Below are positions 2,218-62,699 of a stretch of 64,000 bases of DNA, piece by piece; position 1 is the first letter of the stretch, and each line of letters begins with the position of its first letter. The notes under the pieces are model-generated. The model saw nothing but the letters and a program-made list of their open reading frames with translations, did not search any database and was not told the origin of the DNA. The DNA comes from Oleisolibacter albus (GTDB taxonomy: Bacteria; Pseudomonadota; Alphaproteobacteria; Azospirillales; Azospirillaceae), in contig NZ_QGNJ01000010.1 in NCBI RefSeq assembly GCF_003336875.1, forward strand, positions 1-64,000, given 5' to 3'. Both the position numbers and the translations under genes were made by a program.

Positions 2218-5161
<2,944 letters not shown>

Positions 5162-5213
5162 TCCGCGGCCGCTGCGGGTCCGGGGGCGCCGCCGCACGCC
5201 CCCGGCAGGGGCC

Positions 5214-5354
5214 TCAGCTGCCGGTATTGCCGTCGCCCAGACCGCCGTTGAATGCCTGCGTCAGCTCTTCCACCGCCAGCGTGGACACGGCCGGAGCGGT
5301 CCATGGCCGGCGCTCCGGCTGTGACGGCGTCTCGTCGCGATGTTCTTCCGCCAT
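5214..5354 (-). CDS. 46-aa RiPP-precursor-like small peptide
   Basis: This short gene has a good Shine-Dalgarno sequence (GGGAG about ten bases before the ATG at 5354). The product is charged at the N-terminus (MAEEHRDETPSQ). It then shows a Trp-x-x-Pro ... Leu ... Leu-Thr arrangement (RRPWTAPAVSTLAVEELT) and ends in a Gly/Asn/Asp-rich tail (GGLGDGNTGS). That layout resembles leader peptides of lasso-type and related RiPP precursors (Y/W-x-x-P-x-L ... T), with the tail as the possible core. No synthetase, protease, PqqD-like or HPr-kinase-like gene is beside it, so it would be an orphan or a relic. An AT-rich stretch with TTGACC at 5428-5423 lies upstream and could hold a promoter. The gene call is moderate and the RiPP reading is inference. 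Confidence 0.5.
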   Translation of the reverse strand: MAEEHRDETPSQPERRPWTAPAVSTLAVEELTQAFNGGLGDGNTGS

Positions 5355-5609
5355 CCTTGTTCTCCCGCGCTTGATGCTGGGCCTCAACGCCCACCAAAGG
5401 TGGTAATCGCAATGGTTGCATCGGTCAAATATATAATATGACCACCTCCGCCGTACCCTGATCCGTCCCGCCAGAGCGGGGCAGGCTCACCCCGCCGGGC
5501 GCCGGACCGCCGGGTGGACAGGCCGCTGATCATCCCCGGCCGGGGCACGGATCTTCCCCTGATCTCCGCCCATCTCGGCCGCCAGCGCATGATCCAGGCA
5601 GTGGCATGA

Positions 5610-21689: not shown

Positions 21690-21922
21690 GATGACTCGTC
21701 ACGTCAGGGGGATCGGGGTGCGCCCGGCAGCCCCGGCGGCGGCCCGCCGCCCGGCCCCGGGCGGCCCGCACCCTAACACCGCCCTTCCCCCCCGGCAACC
21801 CGCGCCCGGGGCGGCGCCCCGCTGGCGCTCTGCACCGCAATGGGGATGCTCCACTTCGCCGGTCACCGGACCGTGCGCAGTGCAGATGATCAGCACGCGG
21901 AAGCGCCGTGCAGTGGACCGAC

Positions 21923-22000
21923 AAAAAAGGCGGCGCCGGAGCGCCGCCCTTATCTGGTGCGTTTGACTGCTTGTTAACAGCCAGACCGCGATCTCTGATT
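21923..22000 (-). ncRNA. Predicted tracrRNA of the type II-C CRISPR system
   Basis: On the minus strand the segment TCAGAGATCGCGGTC is identical to 15 bases of the plus-strand CRISPR repeat. Read as an anti-repeat it pairs with the minus-strand (crRNA-sense) repeat over about 24 bp, with one bulge, one mismatch and several G-U pairs, ending at the repeat's first bases GUU. It is followed by AACAAGCAGTCAAACGCACC and a GC-rich hairpin (GGCGGCGC / GCGCCGCC class, 21929-21948) with six T residues at 21928-21923, a good terminator. Predicted length is about 78 nt from a start near 22000. It is divergent from cas9. The call rests on complementarity, position and terminator together. Confidence 0.85.
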
Positions 22001-22005
22001 TGCCA

Positions 22006-22035
22006 TTCTTACCTTAGAATTGAAATAATGGTCAA
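22006..22035 (-). promoter_or_regulatory. Candidate tracrRNA promoter
   Basis: On the minus strand TTGACC (22035-22030) is followed after 18 bases by TAAGAA (22011-22006), which would start RNA about 22000, exactly at the anti-repeat. The -35 is good and the -10 only fair. The cas9 promoter must lie in the same 70-base AT-rich interval; TTGCCA (22000-22005) and AATAAT (22024-22029) on the plus strand are weak candidates. Confidence 0.5.
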
Positions 22036-22071
22036 GCGTCGGCACAGGACGAATTTGATGGGGATATGATC

Positions 22072-25000
22072 ATGCCGTGGCGTTTGGGTCTGGATATGGG
22101 CGCCGGGTCACTCGGCTGGTGCGCGGTTCGCTTGGATGAGCAGGGACAGCCCATTGGCATTTTGGCAGCCGGGGCTCACATTTTCGGTGACGGGCGCACC
22201 CCTGCGCGGGGAGACCAACAGGGTACGCCCTTGGCGGTGGAACGTCGGGCGGCGCGCGCCATGCGTCGCCGGCGGGATCGGTTCAAGCGGCGGCAGGCAG
22301 CCTTGCTGACACAGTTGGCGGCCCACGGCCTGTTCCCGGCCGACCCGGTGCGCGCCAAAGCCCTGGAATTGCTGGACCCCTATGAACTGCGAACCAGGGC
22401 CTTGGACCAGCCGCTGCCGCTTGAGCATCTCGGCCGCGCCCTGTTCCATTTGAACCAGCGGCGGGGCTTCAAATCGAACCGCAAGACCGATCGCGGCGCC
22501 GAGGAGGAAGCGGGAAAGATCGCCGTCGGCGTGGATCGGCTGCGTGCCGCCATGCGCGATGCGGGCGCCCGGACCATGGGCGAATTCCTGCATCGGCGGC
22601 GCCTCTCCGCCCCCGATGCCAACGCCATCCCCAGCGTGCGCACCCGGCTTCGTCCCGAAACCGGCGAAGATGCCAAGGGCGACGGCTATGACTTCTATCC
22701 CGGCCGCGATCTGGTCGAGGAGGAGTTCAAGGCCATCTGGGCCGCCCAGGTCCCGCATCACCCGGCGGTGTTGACCCCCGCGGTGCATGATCTGCTGCAC
22801 CGGACCATTTTCCACCAACGCCCGCTGCTCCGTCCCCGAATCGGAACCTGTACGCTGGTCGATGGCGAACAGCGTCTGCCCAAGGCGCACCCCCTGTTTC
22901 AGCGCCGGAGGCTGCTGGAAGAGGTCAATGCCCTGCGTATTGTGCGGCCGGGGACAGCGGCGGCCCCCCTCACCCGGATGCAGCGCGACCTGCTGCTGCT
23001 GAAGTTGAAGGACAAGGCCAAGGTCGGCTTCGAGAGTCTGCGCAAGCTGCTGAAACTTCAGCCCGAGGCCCGCTTCAACAAGGAAAGCGAGCATCGCAGG
23101 GATCTGGCGGGCGACGAGGTCTTTGCCCAGATGGCAGCCAGGACCCGGTTCGGCACGGCCTGGGCACATCTGCCCGTGGAGACCCAGTGGGCCGTCATCT
23201 CCCGCGTCCTGGAGGAGGAGGAAACCGAACCCCTGCTGGCCTGGCTGCAAGCCGAACATGGGCTGGATGCGGAGCGGGCAAAGGCCGTTGCCGGCGCCCG
23301 GCTGCCCCAGGGCTATGGCCGGTTCGGCGAGACGGCGACGCGCCGCCTGATCGAGGCTCTGACCGCCGACGTCATCACCTACGACAAGGCGGTGGTGGCC
23401 GCGGGGCTGGGGCATCACAGCGACCGGCGCACCGGCGAGGTCCTGGACGACCTGCCCTATTACGGCATCACACTCGAACGTCATCTTCTGCCGGGAACGG
23501 GGGACCGCTCCGATCCGGAGGAGATGCGCATCGGGCGCCTGACCAATCCGACGGTGCATATCGCCCTGAACCGCCTGCGCCGGGTGGTCAATCGCCTGAT
23601 CCGCACCTATGGCCGGCCGGCGGAGATCGCCATCGAGCTTGCCCGTGAGCTGAAGCTGACCGCAGAGGAAAAACAGCGGCTATCGAAGGAAAATAATCGC
23701 AACCGCGCCGAGGCCGAGGTCCGATCCAGGAAACTGGCGGAGCTGGGCCAGCCCGATACCGGCGCCAACCGCGCCCGGTTGAAATTGTGGGAGGAACTGA
23801 ACCCGGACAATGTGCTGGACCGTCGCTGCGTCTACAGTGGCGTCCAGATTTCACCGGCCATGCTCTTCACCGACGTGGTGGAGGTGGACCACATCCTGCC
23901 CTTCGATTCCACCTGGGATGACAGCCACGCCAACAAGATCCTGTGCCTGCGGGAATGGAACCGGCGCAAGCGCAAACAATCCCCCTTCCAGGCCTGGGGC
24001 CACACGCCGGATTGGCCCGACATCGCCGCCCGCGCCGCCCGCCTGCCACGGGAGAAACGCTGGCGCTTCGAGCCGGAGGCCATGCAGCGCTTCGATGAAA
24101 AGGGCGGCTTCATCGCCCGCCATCTGGTCGACACCCAGTACATGTCGCGGCTGGCGCGGGAATATCTGGAGGCCCTCTACCCCGAGCGCGGGGAGGGCAG
24201 CAGCCATGTCTGGGCCACACCCGGCCGCTTGACCGAGCTGATCCGGCGCAAGCTGGGGCTGAACGAACTGCTGCCTGACCATAATTACACCACCGGCAAG
24301 AACAGGTTGGACCATCGCCACCACGCCATCGACGCGGCGGTGGTCGCCATCACCGATCGCTCCTTGTTGCAGCGCATGGCCCGCGCCTCGGCGCTGGAAG
24401 GGGATGAAGGACGGGAACGCGTGGTGGTGATCCCGCCGTGGGAGAGCTTCCACGACGATCTGCGCGATGTTCTGACCGTCATGACGGTCAGCCACCGGTC
24501 CGACCATGGCACGGCGTCGAAGGCCGGCCTGCCGAAGGGGCGGGATCAGACGGCGGGCCGGCTGCACAACGATACCGCCTATGGCCTGACGGGGCTGAAG
24601 GACAGCCGCGGCAATGATCTGGTGGTCAGCCGCAAGCCCCTCACCGCCCTGAAACCCGCCGATCTGGAACCCGTGCCCGATGGCACCGCCATCACGACCG
24701 GCGTCCGCGACCCGGCGCTGCGCCGGGCTCTGCATCGCTTCACCTGCGGGCATGACGGCAAGGCCTTCCTCCAGGCCCTGGCAGCCTTCGCCAAGGACGG
24801 CCCCCTGCCCTTCCGCGGCATCCGCCGCGTCCGCCGCATCGAACCGTTGAAGGTCATTCCCATCCGGGGGGCGGACGGCCTGCCCTACAAGGGCTACAAG
24901 GGCGACAGCAACTACCGCTACGACGTCTGGGAACTCCCGGACGGCACCTGGAAAGCGGAGGTGCTGTCCATGTTCGATGCACACCAGCCCGGCTGGACCT

Positions 25001-25347
25001 CGGCCGTGCGGGCCGGCTGTCCCACCGCGCGCAAGGTCCTCAGCCTGCATCAGGACGACATCATCGCCATCGAGAGCGAGGGGGGAAGCCGCGAACTGAA
25101 GCGTGTCGTCAAGTTCGGCCAGAATGGTCAGATTACGCTGGCAGCCCCGAATGAGGCCGGCGACCTGAAACGGCGCAACGACCTGCCGCTGGATCAGGAC
25201 CCGTTTGTCTACAGCTCCCCGACGGCCGGCGGTTTGAAGCGGCTGAAAGCCCGGCAGGTGCGGGTGGACGAGTTGGGCCGCGTCCAGGACCCCGGGTTCC
25301 CTGCCCGCAAGGTCCGCCGCCGCACCCGCGCCAAGGTCGGGACGTGA
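22072..25347 (+). CDS. cas9: CRISPR-associated endonuclease Cas9, type II-C
   Basis: The 1091-aa protein is a small Cas9 with all nuclease motifs intact: RuvC-I LGLDMGAGSLGW with D8, the arginine-rich bridge helix (RRAARAMRRRRDRFKRRQ), RuvC-II IAIELAREL with E522, HNH VEVDHILPFD with H607, and RuvC-III HRHHAIDAAVVAI with D754. The length and the lack of csn2 or cas4 nearby fit subtype II-C. I prefer the ATG at 22072 (GGGG eight bases upstream) over the ATG two codons earlier, which sits on top of the Shine-Dalgarno. Its stop overlaps the cas1 start (GTGA). It should cut DNA guided by crRNA plus the tracrRNA predicted at 21923-22000; the PAM cannot be read from sequence. Confidence 0.97.
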   Translation: MPWRLGLDMGAGSLGWCAVRLDEQGQPIGILAAGAHIFGDGRTPARGDQQGTPLAVERRAARAMRRRRDRFKRRQAALLTQLAAHGLFPADPVRAKALELLDPYELRTRALDQPLPLEHLGRALFHLNQRRGFKSNRKTDRGAEEEAGKIAVGVDRLRAAMRDAGARTMGEFLHRRRLSAPDANAIPSVRTRLRPETGEDAKGDGYDFYPGRDLVEEEFKAIWAAQVPHHPAVLTPAVHDLLHRTIFHQRPLLRPRIGTCTLVDGEQRLPKAHPLFQRRRLLEEVNALRIVRPGTAAAPLTRMQRDLLLLKLKDKAKVGFESLRKLLKLQPEARFNKESEHRRDLAGDEVFAQMAARTRFGTAWAHLPVETQWAVISRVLEEEETEPLLAWLQAEHGLDAERAKAVAGARLPQGYGRFGETATRRLIEALTADVITYDKAVVAAGLGHHSDRRTGEVLDDLPYYGITLERHLLPGTGDRSDPEEMRIGRLTNPTVHIALNRLRRVVNRLIRTYGRPAEIAIELARELKLTAEEKQRLSKENNRNRAEAEVRSRKLAELGQPDTGANRARLKLWEELNPDNVLDRRCVYSGVQISPAMLFTDVVEVDHILPFDSTWDDSHANKILCLREWNRRKRKQSPFQAWGHTPDWPDIAARAARLPREKRWRFEPEAMQRFDEKGGFIARHLVDTQYMSRLAREYLEALYPERGEGSSHVWATPGRLTELIRRKLGLNELLPDHNYTTGKNRLDHRHHAIDAAVVAITDRSLLQRMARASALEGDEGRERVVVIPPWESFHDDLRDVLTVMTVSHRSDHGTASKAGLPKGRDQTAGRLHNDTAYGLTGLKDSRGNDLVVSRKPLTALKPADLEPVPDGTAITTGVRDPALRRALHRFTCGHDGKAFLQALAAFAKDGPLPFRGIRRVRRIEPLKVIPIRGADGLPYKGYKGDSNYRYDVWELPDGTWKAEVLSMFDAHQPGWTSAVRAGCPTARKVLSLHQDDIIAIESEGGSRELKRVVKFGQNGQITLAAPNEAGDLKRRNDLPLDQDPFVYSSPTAGGLKRLKARQVRVDELGRVQDPGFPARKVRRRTRAKVGT

Positions 25348-26282
25348 CGGGGGTCGCCGTGGAGCGGATCGTGGACATTGCCACCGAGGGCCGGCATCTG
25401 TCGGCCTCGCGCGGGTTCCTGGTGGTCAGCGCCGACCGGCAGGAGGTGGGCCGCATCCCCCTGGACGATGTGGCGGCGGTCATCGTCCATGCCCATGGCG
25501 TCACCTGGACCACCAGCCTGCTGGTGGCCCTGGCCGAGCGGGGCGCTGTGATGGTGCTGTGCGGCAGCAATCACGCCCCCGTCGCCCTCTGCCTGCCGCT
25601 GGACGGGCATCACGCCCAGAACGCCCGCCTGCGCGCCCAGTGGCAGGCCGGACGCCCCCTGGTCAAGCAACTCTGGCGTCGGGTGGTGGTTGCCAAGATC
25701 CGCTGGCAGGCGGCGGTCCTGGCCGCCTTCGGCCGGCCGGCGGACGGATTCGACCTGCTGGCGCGGCAGGTGGCATCCGGCGATACCGGCAATGTGGAGG
25801 CCCAGGCGGCACGGCGCTACTGGCCCCTGCTGATGGGGCCGGACTTCCGCCGTGACCGGCAGGCCCCGGATGCCAACGCCCTGTTGAATTACGGCTACAC
25901 CGTCATGCGCTCCCTCTGCGCGCGGGCGGTGGTCGCGGCGGGATTGCATCCCTCCATCGGCATCCACCATGCCAATCGTACCAATGCCTTCGCCCTTGCC
26001 GACGATCTGGTGGAACCGTTCCGGCCGCTGGTCGATGCGCTGACGCTCCGGCTTCTGGACCGGGGGGTGACAGAGGTGACGCCCGTGGCCAAACACGCCT
26101 ATGCCGGCCTGATCGCGGTCGACCTTCCCGGCCCGGCCGGCACCACCACCGCCACGCTCGCGGCGATGCGGGCGGCGCAGTCGCTGGCCACGGCCTTCAC
26201 CCTCGGCCAGGCCGATTCCCTGGAGCTTCCGCTTCCACCAACGGCCGCCGTTCTGGCCGATCTCGACGGGTTGCTCCCATGA
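25344..26282 (+). CDS. cas1: CRISPR-associated integrase Cas1
   Basis: Cas1 with Cas2 integrates new spacers. The 312-aa protein shows the type II Cas1 pattern: the N-terminal beta domain (RHLSASRGFLVVSADRQEVG) and the all-alpha catalytic domain with the metal ligands in NVEAQAARRYW (E152), SIGIHHANRTNAF (H208) and LADDLVEPFRP (D221). The GTG start overlaps the cas9 stop by four bases, and the cas2 ATG overlaps the cas1 stop, so cas9-cas1-cas2 is one tightly coupled operon. Confidence 0.96.
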   Translation: MTGVAVERIVDIATEGRHLSASRGFLVVSADRQEVGRIPLDDVAAVIVHAHGVTWTTSLLVALAERGAVMVLCGSNHAPVALCLPLDGHHAQNARLRAQWQAGRPLVKQLWRRVVVAKIRWQAAVLAAFGRPADGFDLLARQVASGDTGNVEAQAARRYWPLLMGPDFRRDRQAPDANALLNYGYTVMRSLCARAVVAAGLHPSIGIHHANRTNAFALADDLVEPFRPLVDALTLRLLDRGVTEVTPVAKHAYAGLIAVDLPGPAGTTTATLAAMRAAQSLATAFTLGQADSLELPLPPTAAVLADLDGLLP

Positions 26283-26623
26283 CGCGCCAGCCTCCACAGC
26301 TCAGCGGATATAGGCTCATGTGGATCTTCGTGATGTTCGATCTGCCCGTCACGTCCAAGGCCGAATCGCGGGCGGCCACGAAATTCCGGGAATTCCTGCT
26401 GGACGAGGGATTCGAGAAAAGCCAGTTTTCGGTCTATGCCCGCTTCTGCAGCGGGAAGGAGCAGTTCGATGCCTATATCCGCCGGATCGAGGCCAACCTG
26501 CCATCGCAAGGGGAGGTCCACATCCTCACCTTCACCGACCGGCAGTATGAGAATATCGTCCGCTTCTCCGGCCGACGTCGGCGCAAGCAGCAGAAAAATC
26601 CCGGCCAGCTCGCCCTGTTCTGA
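26279..26623 (+). CDS. cas2: CRISPR-associated protein Cas2
   Basis: The 114-aa protein has the ferredoxin-like Cas2 core beginning WIFVMFDLPV with the conserved D21, followed by FREFLLDEGFEKSQFSVYAR. It is the structural partner of Cas1. Its ATG overlaps the cas1 stop by four bases (ATGA). The basic segment SGRRRRKQQKN near the end is usual for the type II version. The array's transcription terminator lies 26-67 bases beyond its stop. Confidence 0.95.
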   Translation: MTRQPPQLSGYRLMWIFVMFDLPVTSKAESRAATKFREFLLDEGFEKSQFSVYARFCSGKEQFDAYIRRIEANLPSQGEVHILTFTDRQYENIVRFSGRRRRKQQKNPGQLALF

Positions 26624-26648
26624 ACGGGCCTTTCCGTTTCGTCGGCGG

Positions 26649-26690
26649 AAAAGGCGGTCATGTCCTTTATGGATCAAGGACATGACCGCC
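26649..26690 (-). terminator. Rho-independent terminator of the CRISPR array transcript
   Basis: GGCGGTCATGTCCTT (26653-26667) and AAGGACATGACCGCC (26676-26690) form a perfect 15-bp inverted repeat with an 8-base loop. On the minus strand the stem is followed by TTTT (26652-26649); on the plus strand no T run follows. It thus ends RNA coming from the array towards cas2, supporting minus-strand crRNA transcription. It is five bases from the first repeat. Confidence 0.75.
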
Positions 26691-26695
26691 GATCC

Positions 26696-27390
26696 ATGAT
26701 AGCCGCTCAGAGATCGCGGTCCAGCGGCAACCGCAGGAGGTTCGCGAACGCAAACCCTTTCATGATAGCCGCTCAGAGATCGCGGTCCAGCGGCAACCAG
26801 GGAGGAGGCGCCCACGACTGCCCGCGATGATAGCCGCTCAGAGATCGCGGTCCAGCGGCAACGAACACATGGCGCCGGCGTGGATTGGCTGCATGATAGC
26901 CGCTCAGAGATCGCGGTCCAGCGGCAACCGCGCGGGGCGCCCAGGATCAGCCCCGGGCATGATAGCCGCTCAGAGATCGCGGTCCAGCGGCAACGCCTCC
27001 AGGCTCTCATACACCATGTCCGCGATGATAGCCGCTCAGAGATCGCGGTCCAGCGGCAACTGCGAGGACGGTGGCGACACCTGGAGCGACATGATAGCCG
27101 CTCAGAGATCGCGGTCCAGCGGCAACACTGGCGCTGCGTGCGCGGGCTGCGCACAGATGATAGCCGCTCAGAGATCGCGGTCCAGCGGCAACTAAATCGT
27201 TCCAGTCGCATTTCCCCCGCCGATGATAGCCGCTCAGAGATCGCGGTCCAGCGGCAACGGTGAGGGTTGCGGACGCAGTGGCGGCAGGATGATAGCCGCT
27301 CAGAGATCGCGGTCCAGCGGCAACGGACACAGCGACCGCGGCAGCGCCGCCCGCATGATAGCCGCTCAGAGATCGCGGTCCAGCGCCGCC
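26696..27390 (-). CRISPR. CRISPR array, 11 repeats of 36 bp and 10 spacers
   Basis: The 36-bp repeat reads ATGATAGCCGCTCAGAG followed by ATCGCGGTCCAGCGGCAAC on the plus strand. Copies start at 26696, 26762, 26827, 26893, 26959, 27025, 27091, 27157, 27223, 27289 and 27355. Spacers are 30 bp, except the second, which is 29. Ten repeats are identical; the last matches only its first 31 bases. The predicted crRNA sense is the minus strand, where the repeat starts GTTGCCGC, as type II repeats do, pairs with the tracrRNA and ends in TATCAT, a -10-like hexamer with TGGACC 16 bases earlier. GCCGCT/AGCGGC inside the repeat is an inverted repeat. Spacer targets cannot be named here. Confidence 0.98.
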
Positions 27391-27453
27391 CTTACAGCGC
27401 ACTGACGGGCATCCGGCGGCCCGGGCGGCGAAACCATAAGTCTTTGAAAATAT

Positions 27454-27529
27454 TGGTGGGCCCGGCAGGATTCGAACCTGCAACCAGACCGTTATGAGCG
27501 GCCGGCTCTAACCGTTGAGCTACAGGCCC
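27454..27529 (-). tRNA. tRNA with CAU anticodon, probably tRNA-Ile2 (lysidine)
   Basis: A 76-nt cloverleaf with encoded CCA folds cleanly: acceptor GGGCCTG/CGGGCCC, D stem GCTC/GAGC, anticodon stem GGCCG/CGGTC with loop CTCATAA, T stem GCAGG/CCTGC with TTCGAAT. The anticodon is CAU. Base pairs C4-G69 and C5-G68 are the features TilS uses to select tRNA-Ile2 over elongator tRNA-Met, so isoleucine is more likely than methionine. It is transcribed towards the CRISPR array, whose first crRNA-sense repeat is 63 bases downstream. Confidence 0.9.
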
Positions 27530-43359: not shown

Positions 43360-43727
43360 GTCGTCTCTCAGCACCGACCCGGCGGAAACTTTAACGCGGC
43401 GCTAACAGGCGGTGAAGATAAAATCTTTTTCTAGCAAAAGTCGCACTGACCTTCATGTCACATCCGGACGGGCGGAGCCGGGAAACGATCCTGCTTTCCG
43501 GGGCAGGCCGGTCGCGATCGGACGGGCTGTCATGCCGCATACGGATTGGTGCAGATGCGGGACATAGTCCAACATCTGGTTTCGGTGGCGTGCCATCCCG
43601 ATCCTATGCTTCAAGATAGAGGAGAAGCGCCCCAAAACGTCTTCTGGATAGATCGGCCAAGCACGGATCCCGATTTATATAAGGGCGACAGGAAGTGAGG
43701 ACGCCGGTTCGGCGACCTCGTGTGTTC
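43360..43727. other. Intergenic region upstream of the riboswitch
   Basis: About 370 bases contain no supported gene. The stretch is less GC-rich than average and must hold the divergent promoters for the Rap1a-like gene and the riboswitch-controlled gene. ATTTATATAAGG near 43675 is the most promoter-like segment for the latter. Confidence 0.4.
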
Positions 43728-43806
43728 AAGGGCAAACCGTCGGAAACGGCGGGACGCAAAGCCTCCGGTCCTCAGACCCCGACGGGTCCGGATAGCGGGG
43801 TTGCCA
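43728..43806 (+). ncRNA. Cyclic di-GMP-I (GEMM-I) riboswitch
   Basis: The leader contains the nearly invariant GEMM-I core in order: AGGGCAAACC, a short hairpin capped by a GGAAAC tetraloop, GGGACGCAAAGCCTCCGG, a variable second hairpin, then GGATAGCGGGGTTGCC. GGCAA and TTGCC close the outer P1 helix. The Shine-Dalgarno GGAGG begins four bases after P1 and the ATG follows at 43819, so ligand-dependent folding could expose or hide the ribosome binding site. No terminator is visible between the aptamer and the gene, which favours translational control. Confidence 0.93.
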
Positions 43807-43818
43807 GACGGAGGACAA

Positions 43819-62014: not shown

Positions 62015-62047
62015 AAAAAAGGGGCGGCCCCGCGGGACCGCCCCTTT
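62015..62047. terminator. Bidirectional terminator between sspB and the OM protein gene
   Basis: GGGGCGG (62021-62027) pairs with CCGCCCC (62038-62044). TTT follows on the plus strand, and on the minus strand six T residues follow (complement of A62015-62020). It can end both converging transcripts, more strongly for the outer-membrane protein gene. Confidence 0.8.
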
Positions 62048-62084
62048 CTCATGCCCGTCGGGCTCATGCCCGTCGGGCGACCGC

Positions 62085-62699
62085 TCAGAAGTTGTAGCGG
62101 ACGGCGACGCGGAACAGGCTGGCGGTGCTGTCGTCCACGCCGCTGCCGCCATTGTTGATCCAGACATAGCGGTAGGACGGGACCAGATCCAGTTCCTTGG
62201 TCATCGGGATGGCCACGCCGACCTCACCGAACATGCTGAGGTCGGTGCTGGAGCCGCCGTCGATGGTGGAGCCGCCGAAGGTGAAGTTGTCGATGTCCAC
62301 ATCGGCGAAGCCGATACCGGCGCCCACATACGGGGTGAAGCCGGCGATGGCGACGTCATAGTAGCCGGCGACGGTGCCGGTGAAGACCGACTGGTCGGCA
62401 CCGAACTTCACCTTGGTGCCGTTGCCCTTGACGTGACCGCCATCGGTCTCGCCATAGCCCAGCTCGCCCTCGAAGCGGAACGAGCCCATGCGGTAGCCGA
62501 CAGCGCCGGTGAACATCCAGCCATTGTCGAAATCGATCGAGCCCTTGCCGCCCGCGACGCTGATGTCGCTATGATTCGGCACCAGCCAGCCGAAACCCGG
62601 GGCAACATAGAACCCGTCCTTCGCGGAGGCCGCGGCGGAAGCGCCTGTGGCCAGCAGAGCCGTGAGGGCCGTGGTCGCGAGGATCTTCTTCATGCTCAT
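62085..62699 (-). CDS. Outer-membrane beta-barrel protein (OmpA/OmpW-like)
   Basis: A signal peptide (KKILATTALTALLATGASAA) is followed by an eight-strand barrel pattern of alternating residues (GFYVAPGFGWLVP, SFRFEGELGYGET, VAGYYDVAIAGFTPYVGAGIG, LVPSYRYVWI). The protein ends SLFRVAVRYNF, where the terminal Phe is the BAM insertion signal. It belongs to the opacity/OMP_b-brl group; the ligand is unknown. I use the ATG at 62699; an ATG two codons later is equally possible. The preceding TTG is less likely. Confidence 0.88.
   Translation of the reverse strand: MSMKKILATTALTALLATGASAAASAKDGFYVAPGFGWLVPNHSDISVAGGKGSIDFDNGWMFTGAVGYRMGSFRFEGELGYGETDGGHVKGNGTKVKFGADQSVFTGTVAGYYDVAIAGFTPYVGAGIGFADVDIDNFTFGGSTIDGGSSTDLSMFGEVGVAIPMTKELDLVPSYRYVWINNGGSGVDDSTASLFRVAVRYNF

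Follow-up and report, generated by a model that had tools for sequence, protein, structure and literature searches.

An apparently intact type II-C CRISPR-Cas locus in Oleisolibacter albus with a conserved hairpin at the acquisition end of its array

Described type II-C systems and CRISPR leaders

EHCas9 is a metagenomic type II-C Cas9 of 1070 amino acids with alphaproteobacterial closest homologues. Its PAM is NGG, and a 73-nt fragment of its tracrRNA was functional within an sgRNA (PMC10281378, accessible part). By this published description the EHCas9 system is similar to the locus analyzed here, which likewise displays the order cas9-cas1-cas2, 36-bp repeats and a tracrRNA upstream of cas9, and which encodes a Cas9 of 1091 amino acids (PMC10281378). 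In the type II-C systems of Neisseria and Campylobacter the promoters are borne by the repeats (PMC8616872, accessible part). Their enzymes Nme1Cas9 and CjCas9 possess HNH and RuvC residues, as does the Cas9 of O. albus. The repeats of O. albus contain promoter-like sites.

Leader-repeat hairpins reportedly occur in Cas13 arrays. Hairpins that pair leader with repeat have been described for type II-A arrays (PMC12080349, accessible part). Both kinds share with the hairpin discussed below a position at the leader end of the array (PMC12080349 for type II-A), but the latter lies wholly within the leader, downstream of the array in the crRNA sense. In type II-C, 60 % of the extra repeats were found to carry at least one mutation; many are mutated in the first 15 nt, suppressing ecrRNA, and the hairpins treated in the accessible part of that study are those of the oldest end, not of the acquisition end (PMC12080349). 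Types I-E and I-F have IHF-dependent leaders, in which a short and constant spacing separates the site from the first repeat (accessible parts of PMC13034035 and PMC8616872).

Organization of the locus

Between positions 21923 and 27390 the window (the whole stretch of 64,000 nucleotides analyzed) carries a predicted minus-strand tracrRNA, the genes cas9, cas1 and cas2, and an 11-repeat array:

21923-22003, minus strand: predicted tracrRNA gene with anti-repeat, weak nexus and terminator hairpin with T6
22072-25347, plus strand: cas9, type II-C, 1091 amino acids from ATG 22072
25344-26282, plus strand: cas1, type II (NMENI kind), GTG start, 4-base overlap with cas9
26279-26623, plus strand: cas2, 4-base overlap with cas1
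26653-26690, no strand assigned: perfect inverted repeat, 15-bp arms and 8-nt loop, separated by 5 nt from the start of the array
26672-26684, minus strand: IHF-like site CATGTCCTTGATC, agreeing with 7 of 9 defined positions of YAANNNNTTGATW
26696-27390, minus strand (presumed crRNA sense): CRISPR array, 11 repeats and 10 spacers
27355-27390, minus strand: oldest or extra repeat with an intact promoter-like part and changes at positions 2, 3 and 5 of the crRNA sense

Judged by these parts, the locus is very probably a type II-C CRISPR-Cas adaptive immune system, to all appearance intact. It is an ordinary representative of a known subtype, and its most interesting part is the acquisition-end hairpin, which was absent from a previous sequence-only reading. 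That reading described a complete compact II-C locus with a tracrRNA of ~78 nt, which at the sequence level is borne out by the genes, the Cas9 residues, the array and a tracrRNA model. Its statement that all pieces needed for function lie within 5.5 kb is true of the encoded parts, and the tight coupling of cas1 and cas2 that it noticed is seen in the two gene overlaps.

The gene content is that of subtype II-C: cas9, cas1 and cas2 only, with csn2 and cas4 absent from the locus and the array directly after cas2. One cas4 is located on a separate contig (C33). The Csn2 model had no match in the genome, though the same model matched no control either. Cas1 and Cas2 scored over the cut-offs of TIGR03639 (type II Cas1; 226 bits) and TIGR01573 (66 bits), respectively.

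Cas9

Cas9 matched TIGR01865 with 541 bits, over the cut-off; an alternative in-frame ATG at 22066 would yield a protein of 1093 amino acids. Based on their motifs, we take D8, E522, H607, H751 and D754 to be the catalytic residues. These residues and N630 are invariant in an alignment of 25 rows, i.e. the window Cas9 and 24 relatives. The RuvC and HNH domains that mark a type II Cas9 were recognized by family models and by the residue alignment, and the earlier claim of a 1091-residue Cas9 with intact catalytic residues in both domains holds. The solved structures closest by sequence are compact Cas9s, e.g. ThermoCas9 and Nme1Cas9 (9ar4 and 8ja0 are among the entries). The predicted fold (pLDDT 76, pTM 0.50) is closest to Nme1Cas9 among solved structures, with TMq values of 0.32-0.48 in the ten best rows, representing a weak global superposition, and about 22 % identity in the structural alignment.

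TracrRNA

The tail of the tracrRNA differs from that of the Neisseria/Campylobacter kind. The strict anti-repeat core comprises 21984-21998, the terminator (hairpin plus T6, minus strand) ends at 21923, and transcription would start at about 22000-22010. Type II loci are recognized by an anti-repeat tracrRNA near cas9, for which this is the candidate; its duplex with the consensus repeat was calculated at -44.0 kcal/mol. The earlier placement from complementarity and a terminator is supported by these elements and by a covariance model of the clade, R1, which matched the window with 98 bits at E 8.5e-24; nothing else in the genome reached E<=0.001. The training set of R1 included the window sequence; independent support comes from matches in loci left out of the model. 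R1 also detects a tracrRNA in L019 and L023, both without a detected array. With Rfam no tracrRNA family reached the gathering score, and the matches at 21700-22200 were all sub-threshold. A second R1 match in a search of the window only (62017-62100; 24.6 bits, E 1.4e-4) is a GC-rich hairpin with a T-run and was taken as a terminator.

The layout anti-repeat, GTTAACAAG or a close variant, nexus of 11-25 nt, ACCAGA or a close variant, and terminator was found in 42 of 48 loci, and R1 detects a tracrRNA in four of the six loci that fail it (L030, L033, L035, L044). Compared with these sequences, the length and the single strong hairpin of the window tracrRNA are the clade norm, and the view that it is short for the family is not upheld; the one feature below that norm is its nexus stem, which is unusually weak. 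The nexus, GCAGTCAAACGC, is the sole member of the 12-14-nt class without a predicted stem, and the nearest relative, L080, retains a GCAG/CTGC stem. It does not fold on its own, as is the case in 11 of 41 other tracrRNAs, all with 11-nt nexuses. Such a non-folding nexus could mean weakened function. A 3-bp stem with one bulge can be drawn by hand.

No tracrRNA promoter passed in a consensus scan. A repeat-derived promoter was rejected for the window (p 0.30); it is strong in the relatives L011, L038 and L048 (p 0.0025 each), and 6 of 41 loci reach p<=0.01 and 9 of 41 p<=0.05. The locus adds one more compact Cas9, for which the guide parts can now be written by means of the clade-wide tracrRNA model.

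Array, repeat promoters and spacers

The repeats are 36 nt long, and the spacers 30 nt in nine cases and 29 nt in one. Ten of the 11 repeats are identical, in line with the nearly uniform array noticed before, and the last one has three changes. With up to 3 mismatches allowed, the 4.69-Mb genome yielded no further copy of the repeat. The crRNA sense is presumably the minus strand, because of the strand of the tracrRNA. On this strand a promoter-like sequence (TGGACC-16-TATCAT) is present in all 11 repeats; the region has 12 such sites in total, whereas shuffled sequence gave a mean of 0.6. This is the strand on which the repeat promoters of II-C, directed against the cas operon, would lie.

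From the observed genes, residues and array, and the observed conservation of tracrRNA and hairpin, we infer how transcription, processing, cutting, acquisition and termination would proceed. Each repeat would start a short minus-strand transcript that extends across one spacer and on into the repeat that follows. Divergent transcription from cas9 would supply the tracrRNA, which would form about 25 bp with the repeat part, and Cas9, guided by this pair of RNAs, would use its HNH and RuvC sites to cut matching DNA. Cas1-Cas2 would insert new spacers on the cas2 side of the array. The changed repeat at the far end is consistent with spacer entry at the cas2 side.

The oldest repeat is mutated inside the first 15 nt, as are many published II-C extra repeats (PMC12080349, accessible part). 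In addition, a 13-mer of its new 5' end recurs in the terminator arm of the tracrRNA. This repeat keeps its promoter-like part and may have lost part of its handle. Its folded duplex has almost the energy of the consensus duplex (-43.8 against -44.0 kcal/mol), and therefore energy gives no support for the handle loss.

The matches listed for 82 family genomes comprised the array of this genome itself and others that were weak and partial, with no convincing self or family protospacer among them; the query consisted of the ten spacers joined, so that matches at junctions occur. Exact 22-mers of six of the ten spacers gave 0 matches in IMG/VR. Spacer matching therefore yielded neither a targeting history nor a PAM. 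Spacers without a match, together with the nexus that stands alone in its class although L080 keeps its stem, would fit a decaying or inactive system in which the nexus drifted and spacer addition ceased. We regard this as very improbable, since cas9, cas1 and cas2 are open with the Cas9 catalytic residues intact, the repeats are nearly all identical, the leader hairpin is perfect, and the hand-drawn nexus stem is possible.

The hairpin between cas2 and the array

On the minus strand the inverted repeat is followed by T4, forming a terminator-like structure for array transcripts, which would run toward cas2 and probably end here. An intrinsic terminator has a GC-rich stem with a T-run after it; here the 15-bp stem precedes TTTT, and the hairpin is absent from the results of a terminator consensus scan that requires 5 or more T in 8. 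The hairpin is conserved in 42 of 43 arrays of relatives analyzed, L022 being the exception. These were drawn from 51 loci: L019 and L023 were dropped for having no array, L007, L021 and L049 for having no clean 36-nt repeat, and L025, L028 and L045 were left out by the analyst. Among these, the hairpin is missing in L025 and at the L028 array nearest cas9, and present at L007 and L049; L021 gave an ambiguous z of -2.7, its rows being noise from a truncated repeat. When tested more strictly, with no gaps allowed, 29 of 45 scored better than every one of 60 shuffles, with L025 and L045 failing.

The hairpin starts 29 nt past the cas2 stop codon, as would suit a cas2 terminator serving the cas operon rather than an array element. 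This is improbable in our view: the plus strand lacks a T-run, and 7 of 15 secondary arrays (at least two repeats, no detected cas2 adjoining) carry hairpin and motif directly before the first repeat, in Bartonella and Woodsholea. The other eight lack the combination; two of them fold otherwise, without the motif. Of the 19 own-family arrays, 12 have the minus-strand T4 after the hairpin and 1 has the control A4; in the clade set of 43 the T4 is found in only 11 and the control A4 in 6.

The hairpin presumably acts as array terminator and/or integration element. The putative IHF site lies within the palindrome, 12-24 nt from the array, and in Alphaproteobacteria hairpin and IHF-like motif overlap at a fixed phase. 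At offset 12, YAANNNNTTGATW scores 6.6 of 9 in the clade set (34 nonredundant) and equally in the family set (15), and no other offset or strand scores higher (means 2.97, sd 0.72, and 2.74, sd 0.77, respectively). The genome also encodes IHF-alpha. It is quite possible, though we would sooner expect otherwise, that the region serves above all as DNA into which spacers are guided for integration, an IHF-bent leader as in types I-E and I-F, with the dyad secondary. The fixed offset and the IHF-alpha gene speak for this, whereas the arms keep pairing despite sequence change (in a 16-locus set picked for best arm pairing at one register, with L017 added and L027 omitted, which favours pairing). 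Moreover, on the crRNA strand G.T wobbles exceed A.C (47 to 24, p 0.009; 32 against 17, p 0.044, without conserved positions) in cells that are not independent and with the hairpin-less leaders L022, L025, L028, L045, L083 and L100 omitted; this excess points weakly to an RNA hairpin. The hairpin also occurs in other classes, and beyond Alphaproteobacteria it is mostly terminator-like with a patchy motif (29 of 31 type II Cas1 places over the cut-off outside the window examined, 5 of the 29 without array; L153 shares the leader of L011 and is not independent).

We tentatively propose, while considering it rather unlikely, that the 50 bp adjoining the newest repeat form a single element with a double role in the II-C systems of Alphaproteobacteria. 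A terminator RNA hairpin would halt the repeat-driven crRNA transcripts ahead of any antisense reading into the cas genes, and an overlapping IHF-bent site at fixed phase, 12-24 nt from the array, would guide Cas1-Cas2 to that repeat. The short, constant spacing between motif and first repeat would be shared with types I-E and I-F; a type II context and a putative site embedded in a palindrome would set this leader apart (PMC13034035 and PMC8616872, accessible parts). If true, the IHF-type leader enters type II, and crRNA termination is coupled to memory formation. The conserved hairpin and motif provide a testable hypothesis of how cas-ward II-C arrays end their transcripts and mark the integration site. 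No report of an acquisition-end hairpin or IHF site in II-C was found in the open literature, subscription papers being mostly outside the scope of the search. The same search surfaced the Cas13 leader-repeat hairpins and the II-C oldest-end hairpins.

Origin and flanks

The cas gene set is patchy within the genus. In a Cas9 tree (FastTree, no bootstrap, with some long branches meeting) the window protein groups with L080 and Rhodoplanes, and its genus-mate L094 with the family clade. The clade of the window Cas9 occurs in Rhizobiales and Sphingomonadales, apart from most Cas9 of its own family. Given the patchy gene set and this grouping, the locus was therefore probably gained horizontally. 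An empty insertion site in the genus was sought among other genomes in which both flanks gave listed matches; there the serine ammonia-lyase flank had its best match on a different contig from that of the pyruvate-kinase-like flank, giving no clean comparison. A tRNA beside the far array end is no rule: of 50 sources, only the window, L007, L015, L041 and L091 have one at a distance of up to about 200 bp. The five flanking ORFs matched the serine ammonia-lyase and LepA models over the cut-off; matches to the models for pyruvate kinase, an oxidoreductase and a histidine kinase stayed below it.

Locus layout and history

The locus is a sound, ordinary type II-C system, with the following parts.
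22072-25347, plus strand: cas9, 1091 aa (1093 from an ATG six bases upstream)
25344-26282, plus strand: cas1
26279-26623, plus strand: cas2
26653-26690: leader hairpin, a perfect inverted repeat
26696-27390: CRISPR array, 11 copies of a 36-nt repeat separated by 10 spacers
27454-27529, crRNA strand: tRNA-Met, 63 bp past the far array end

Genes overlap by four bases at both the cas9/cas1 and cas1/cas2 junctions, on the plus strand. A family-model search of the three products gave matches above cut-off to TIGR01865, TIGR03639 (type II Cas1) and a Cas2 model. The Cas9 RuvC and HNH residues were placed at D8, E522, H607, H751 and D754; along with N630, all five are unchanged across an alignment with 24 relatives. 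No repeat copies were found outside the array in the 4.69-Mb genome, allowing up to three mismatches. The central claim of the sequence-only reading, a complete II-C CRISPR-Cas9 locus with a tracrRNA, stands with small corrections; its stress on a short tracrRNA does not. Flanking genes match a model for serine ammonia-lyase and, at scores under the cut-off, models for pyruvate kinase. Because the tRNA-Met lies beyond the array on the crRNA strand, its read-through could enter the array. Same-strand tRNA neighbours also occur at the relatives' loci L015 (tRNA-Ser) and L041 (tRNA-Leu).

The Cas9 is 76 % identical to that of L080, from the same genus. Identity is 56-67 % with its nearest clade, of genomes from rhizobia and sphingomonads, and mostly 42-47 % within its own family. 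A Cas9 match was found in 3 of the 11 genus genomes searched, this one counted, and in one of the three the Cas9 falls in the family clade. The locus was likely gained horizontally.

The tracrRNA

As the anti-repeat is on the minus strand, crRNA sense for the array is minus as well. The tracrRNA had been regarded as short for the family. However, the order anti-repeat, GTTAACAAG-like element, nexus, ACCAGA-like element, terminator was seen in 42 of the 48 loci examined. A covariance model (R1), trained on 37 sequences including the present one, scores 98 bits here, the sole match in the genome at E<=0.001. Among 36 loci outside the model, R1 detected a tracrRNA in L019, L023, L030, L033, L035 and L044, as well as in Bartonella (four more loci) and Devosia (two more). 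Of the 22 own-family loci, 20 gave E<1e-5, L096 gave 2.2e-4 and L100 had no match; L045 and L012 yielded no clear tracrRNA, the L012 sequence beginning inside cas9. R1 also gave weak matches to CRISPR repeats, which are expected since the model holds the anti-repeat. The layout counts and outside matches indicate that the clade norm is a tracrRNA of such a length with a single strong hairpin.

Both-side changes were found at 7 of the 11 predicted pairs of the terminator stem. The nexus, GCAGTCAAACGC, is peculiar in being the only one of 12-14 nt in the layout survey without a predicted stem; that of L080, the nearest relative, has the stem GCAG/CTGC, and 11 of the 13 nexuses of 11 nt lack a predicted fold. 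In Devosia loci L034 and L047 the nexus has grown to 24-25 nt and its inner stem is longer, the other 40 loci having 11-14 nt.

In L011, L038 and L048 the tracrRNA promoter region nearly copies the crRNA-sense repeat (28/32, 26/30 and 27/34 letters, respectively), and the anti-repeat starts 7-12 nt after it. Such a pair is perhaps a fossil inverted repeat from which the tracrRNA arose, and a read-through transcript there would be a natural single-guide RNA. No repeat-like tracrRNA promoter region was seen in the window.

The leader hairpin and its overlapping motif

The part of the locus worth a specialist's time is the leader hairpin, between cas2 and the acquisition end of the array, with its overlapping motif. 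In 43 of 51 loci used for a fold survey (L007, L019, L021, L023, L025, L028, L045 and L049 were left out), the stretch of 50 nt next to the first repeat on its leader side gave z<-3 in 42, with a median of -6.8; among controls, z<-2 was reached inside cas2 in 0/43 and in the far flank in 2/33. The leader fold (z<-3) was also found in 17/19 own-family arrays, a second set, and in a phylum sample of 12 further Alphaproteobacteria arrays (9/12; one of them, L153, repeats L011) and 12 of other classes (11/12). Across 16 loci picked for one register, the arms vary in sequence while pairing is kept: 66 % of pairs are Watson-Crick, where 500 shuffles reached no more than 56 % and sliding no more than 41 %; pair types number 44 vs a maximum of 38. 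The hairpin is present at 7 of 15 secondary arrays away from cas2 and can therefore accompany an array without cas2. A second L033 array (5050-5418, minus strand, upstream of cas9) carries a separate leader hairpin that differs in sequence and has the motif in an identical phase.

Runs of at least four T after the stem, in crRNA sense at positions 37-56, occur in 11/43 clade loci, the window counted (A4 control 6), and 12/19 family loci (A4 control 1). A scan of the phylum sample over a wider stretch, loop letters included, gave 9/12 for Alphaproteobacteria (A4 2) and 10/12 for other classes (A4 4). On the fold, array and T-run counts, the plainest reading is that the hairpin would act as the array terminator, although the T-run is absent in many clade members.

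Read in crRNA sense, the 60 nt that directly follow the array carry GAT (2-4), A (13), TTGA (19-22) and AAA (57-59) in 33 nonredundant clade loci; A13 and TTGA are common to the family set, GAT and AAA are not. TTGA that follows YA(A/T) at a distance of exactly four letters is similar to the IHF consensus, YAANNNNTTGATW. The mean consensus score in both clade and family sets is 6.6/9 at offset 12, the highest across offsets and strands; the site here scores 7/9. The motif is patchy outside Alphaproteobacteria (3/12 arrays, loose pattern). An IHF-alpha gene is present in the genome. For type II, excerpts from the literature on CRISPR leaders describe a leader-anchoring sequence; they mention IHF for types I-E and I-F and do not name it for II-C (PMC13034035, PMC8616872). 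We infer that IHF may be used at this II-C leader.

Array transcription and the extra repeat

TGGACC-16-TATCAT occurs on the minus strand in 11/11 repeats, and the array region holds 12 promoter-like sites vs a shuffle mean of 0.6. In the list of repeats compiled across loci, 39 of 46 full-length repeats start A-N-N-N-T-A, and so end in crRNA sense with T-A-N-N-N-T, as a -10 element would. Promoters within repeats and spacers entering at the last repeat have been published for II-C, according to excerpts (PMC12080349, PMC6008519, PMC8092290).

The extra repeat, the far and oldest one (27355-27390), is altered at crRNA-sense positions 2, 3 and 5; the farthest repeat is unaltered in 19 of 40 rows of the list, the window counted. 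Of II-C extra repeats, 60 % are reported to carry one or more mutations, which fall mainly in the first 15 nt (PMC12080349). The 13-mer TAAGGGCGGCGCT occurs twice in the genome, at 21940-21952 (tracrRNA terminator arm) and 27382-27394 (altered extra-repeat end). Co-folded with the tracrRNA, the extra repeat gives -71.0 vs -65.5 kcal/mol for the consensus repeat, its altered end pairing with the other terminator arm; the simple duplexes hardly differ, at -43.8 and -44.0 kcal/mol. The sharing may be chance, as the repeat itself supplies part of the word.

Other features

On another contig of the same genome, C33 (6193-7588), a weak Cas1 match adjoins a cas4 above cut-off; the two probably belong to a further CRISPR-Cas system, of a different type. 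The window also holds:
43722-43809: c-di-GMP-I-GGC riboswitch match, gathering score
48765-48871: SAM-I/IV riboswitch match, gathering score
60914-61282: tmRNA, matching alphaproteobacterial and permuted tmRNA models, tag peptide ANDNSASDLRMAA
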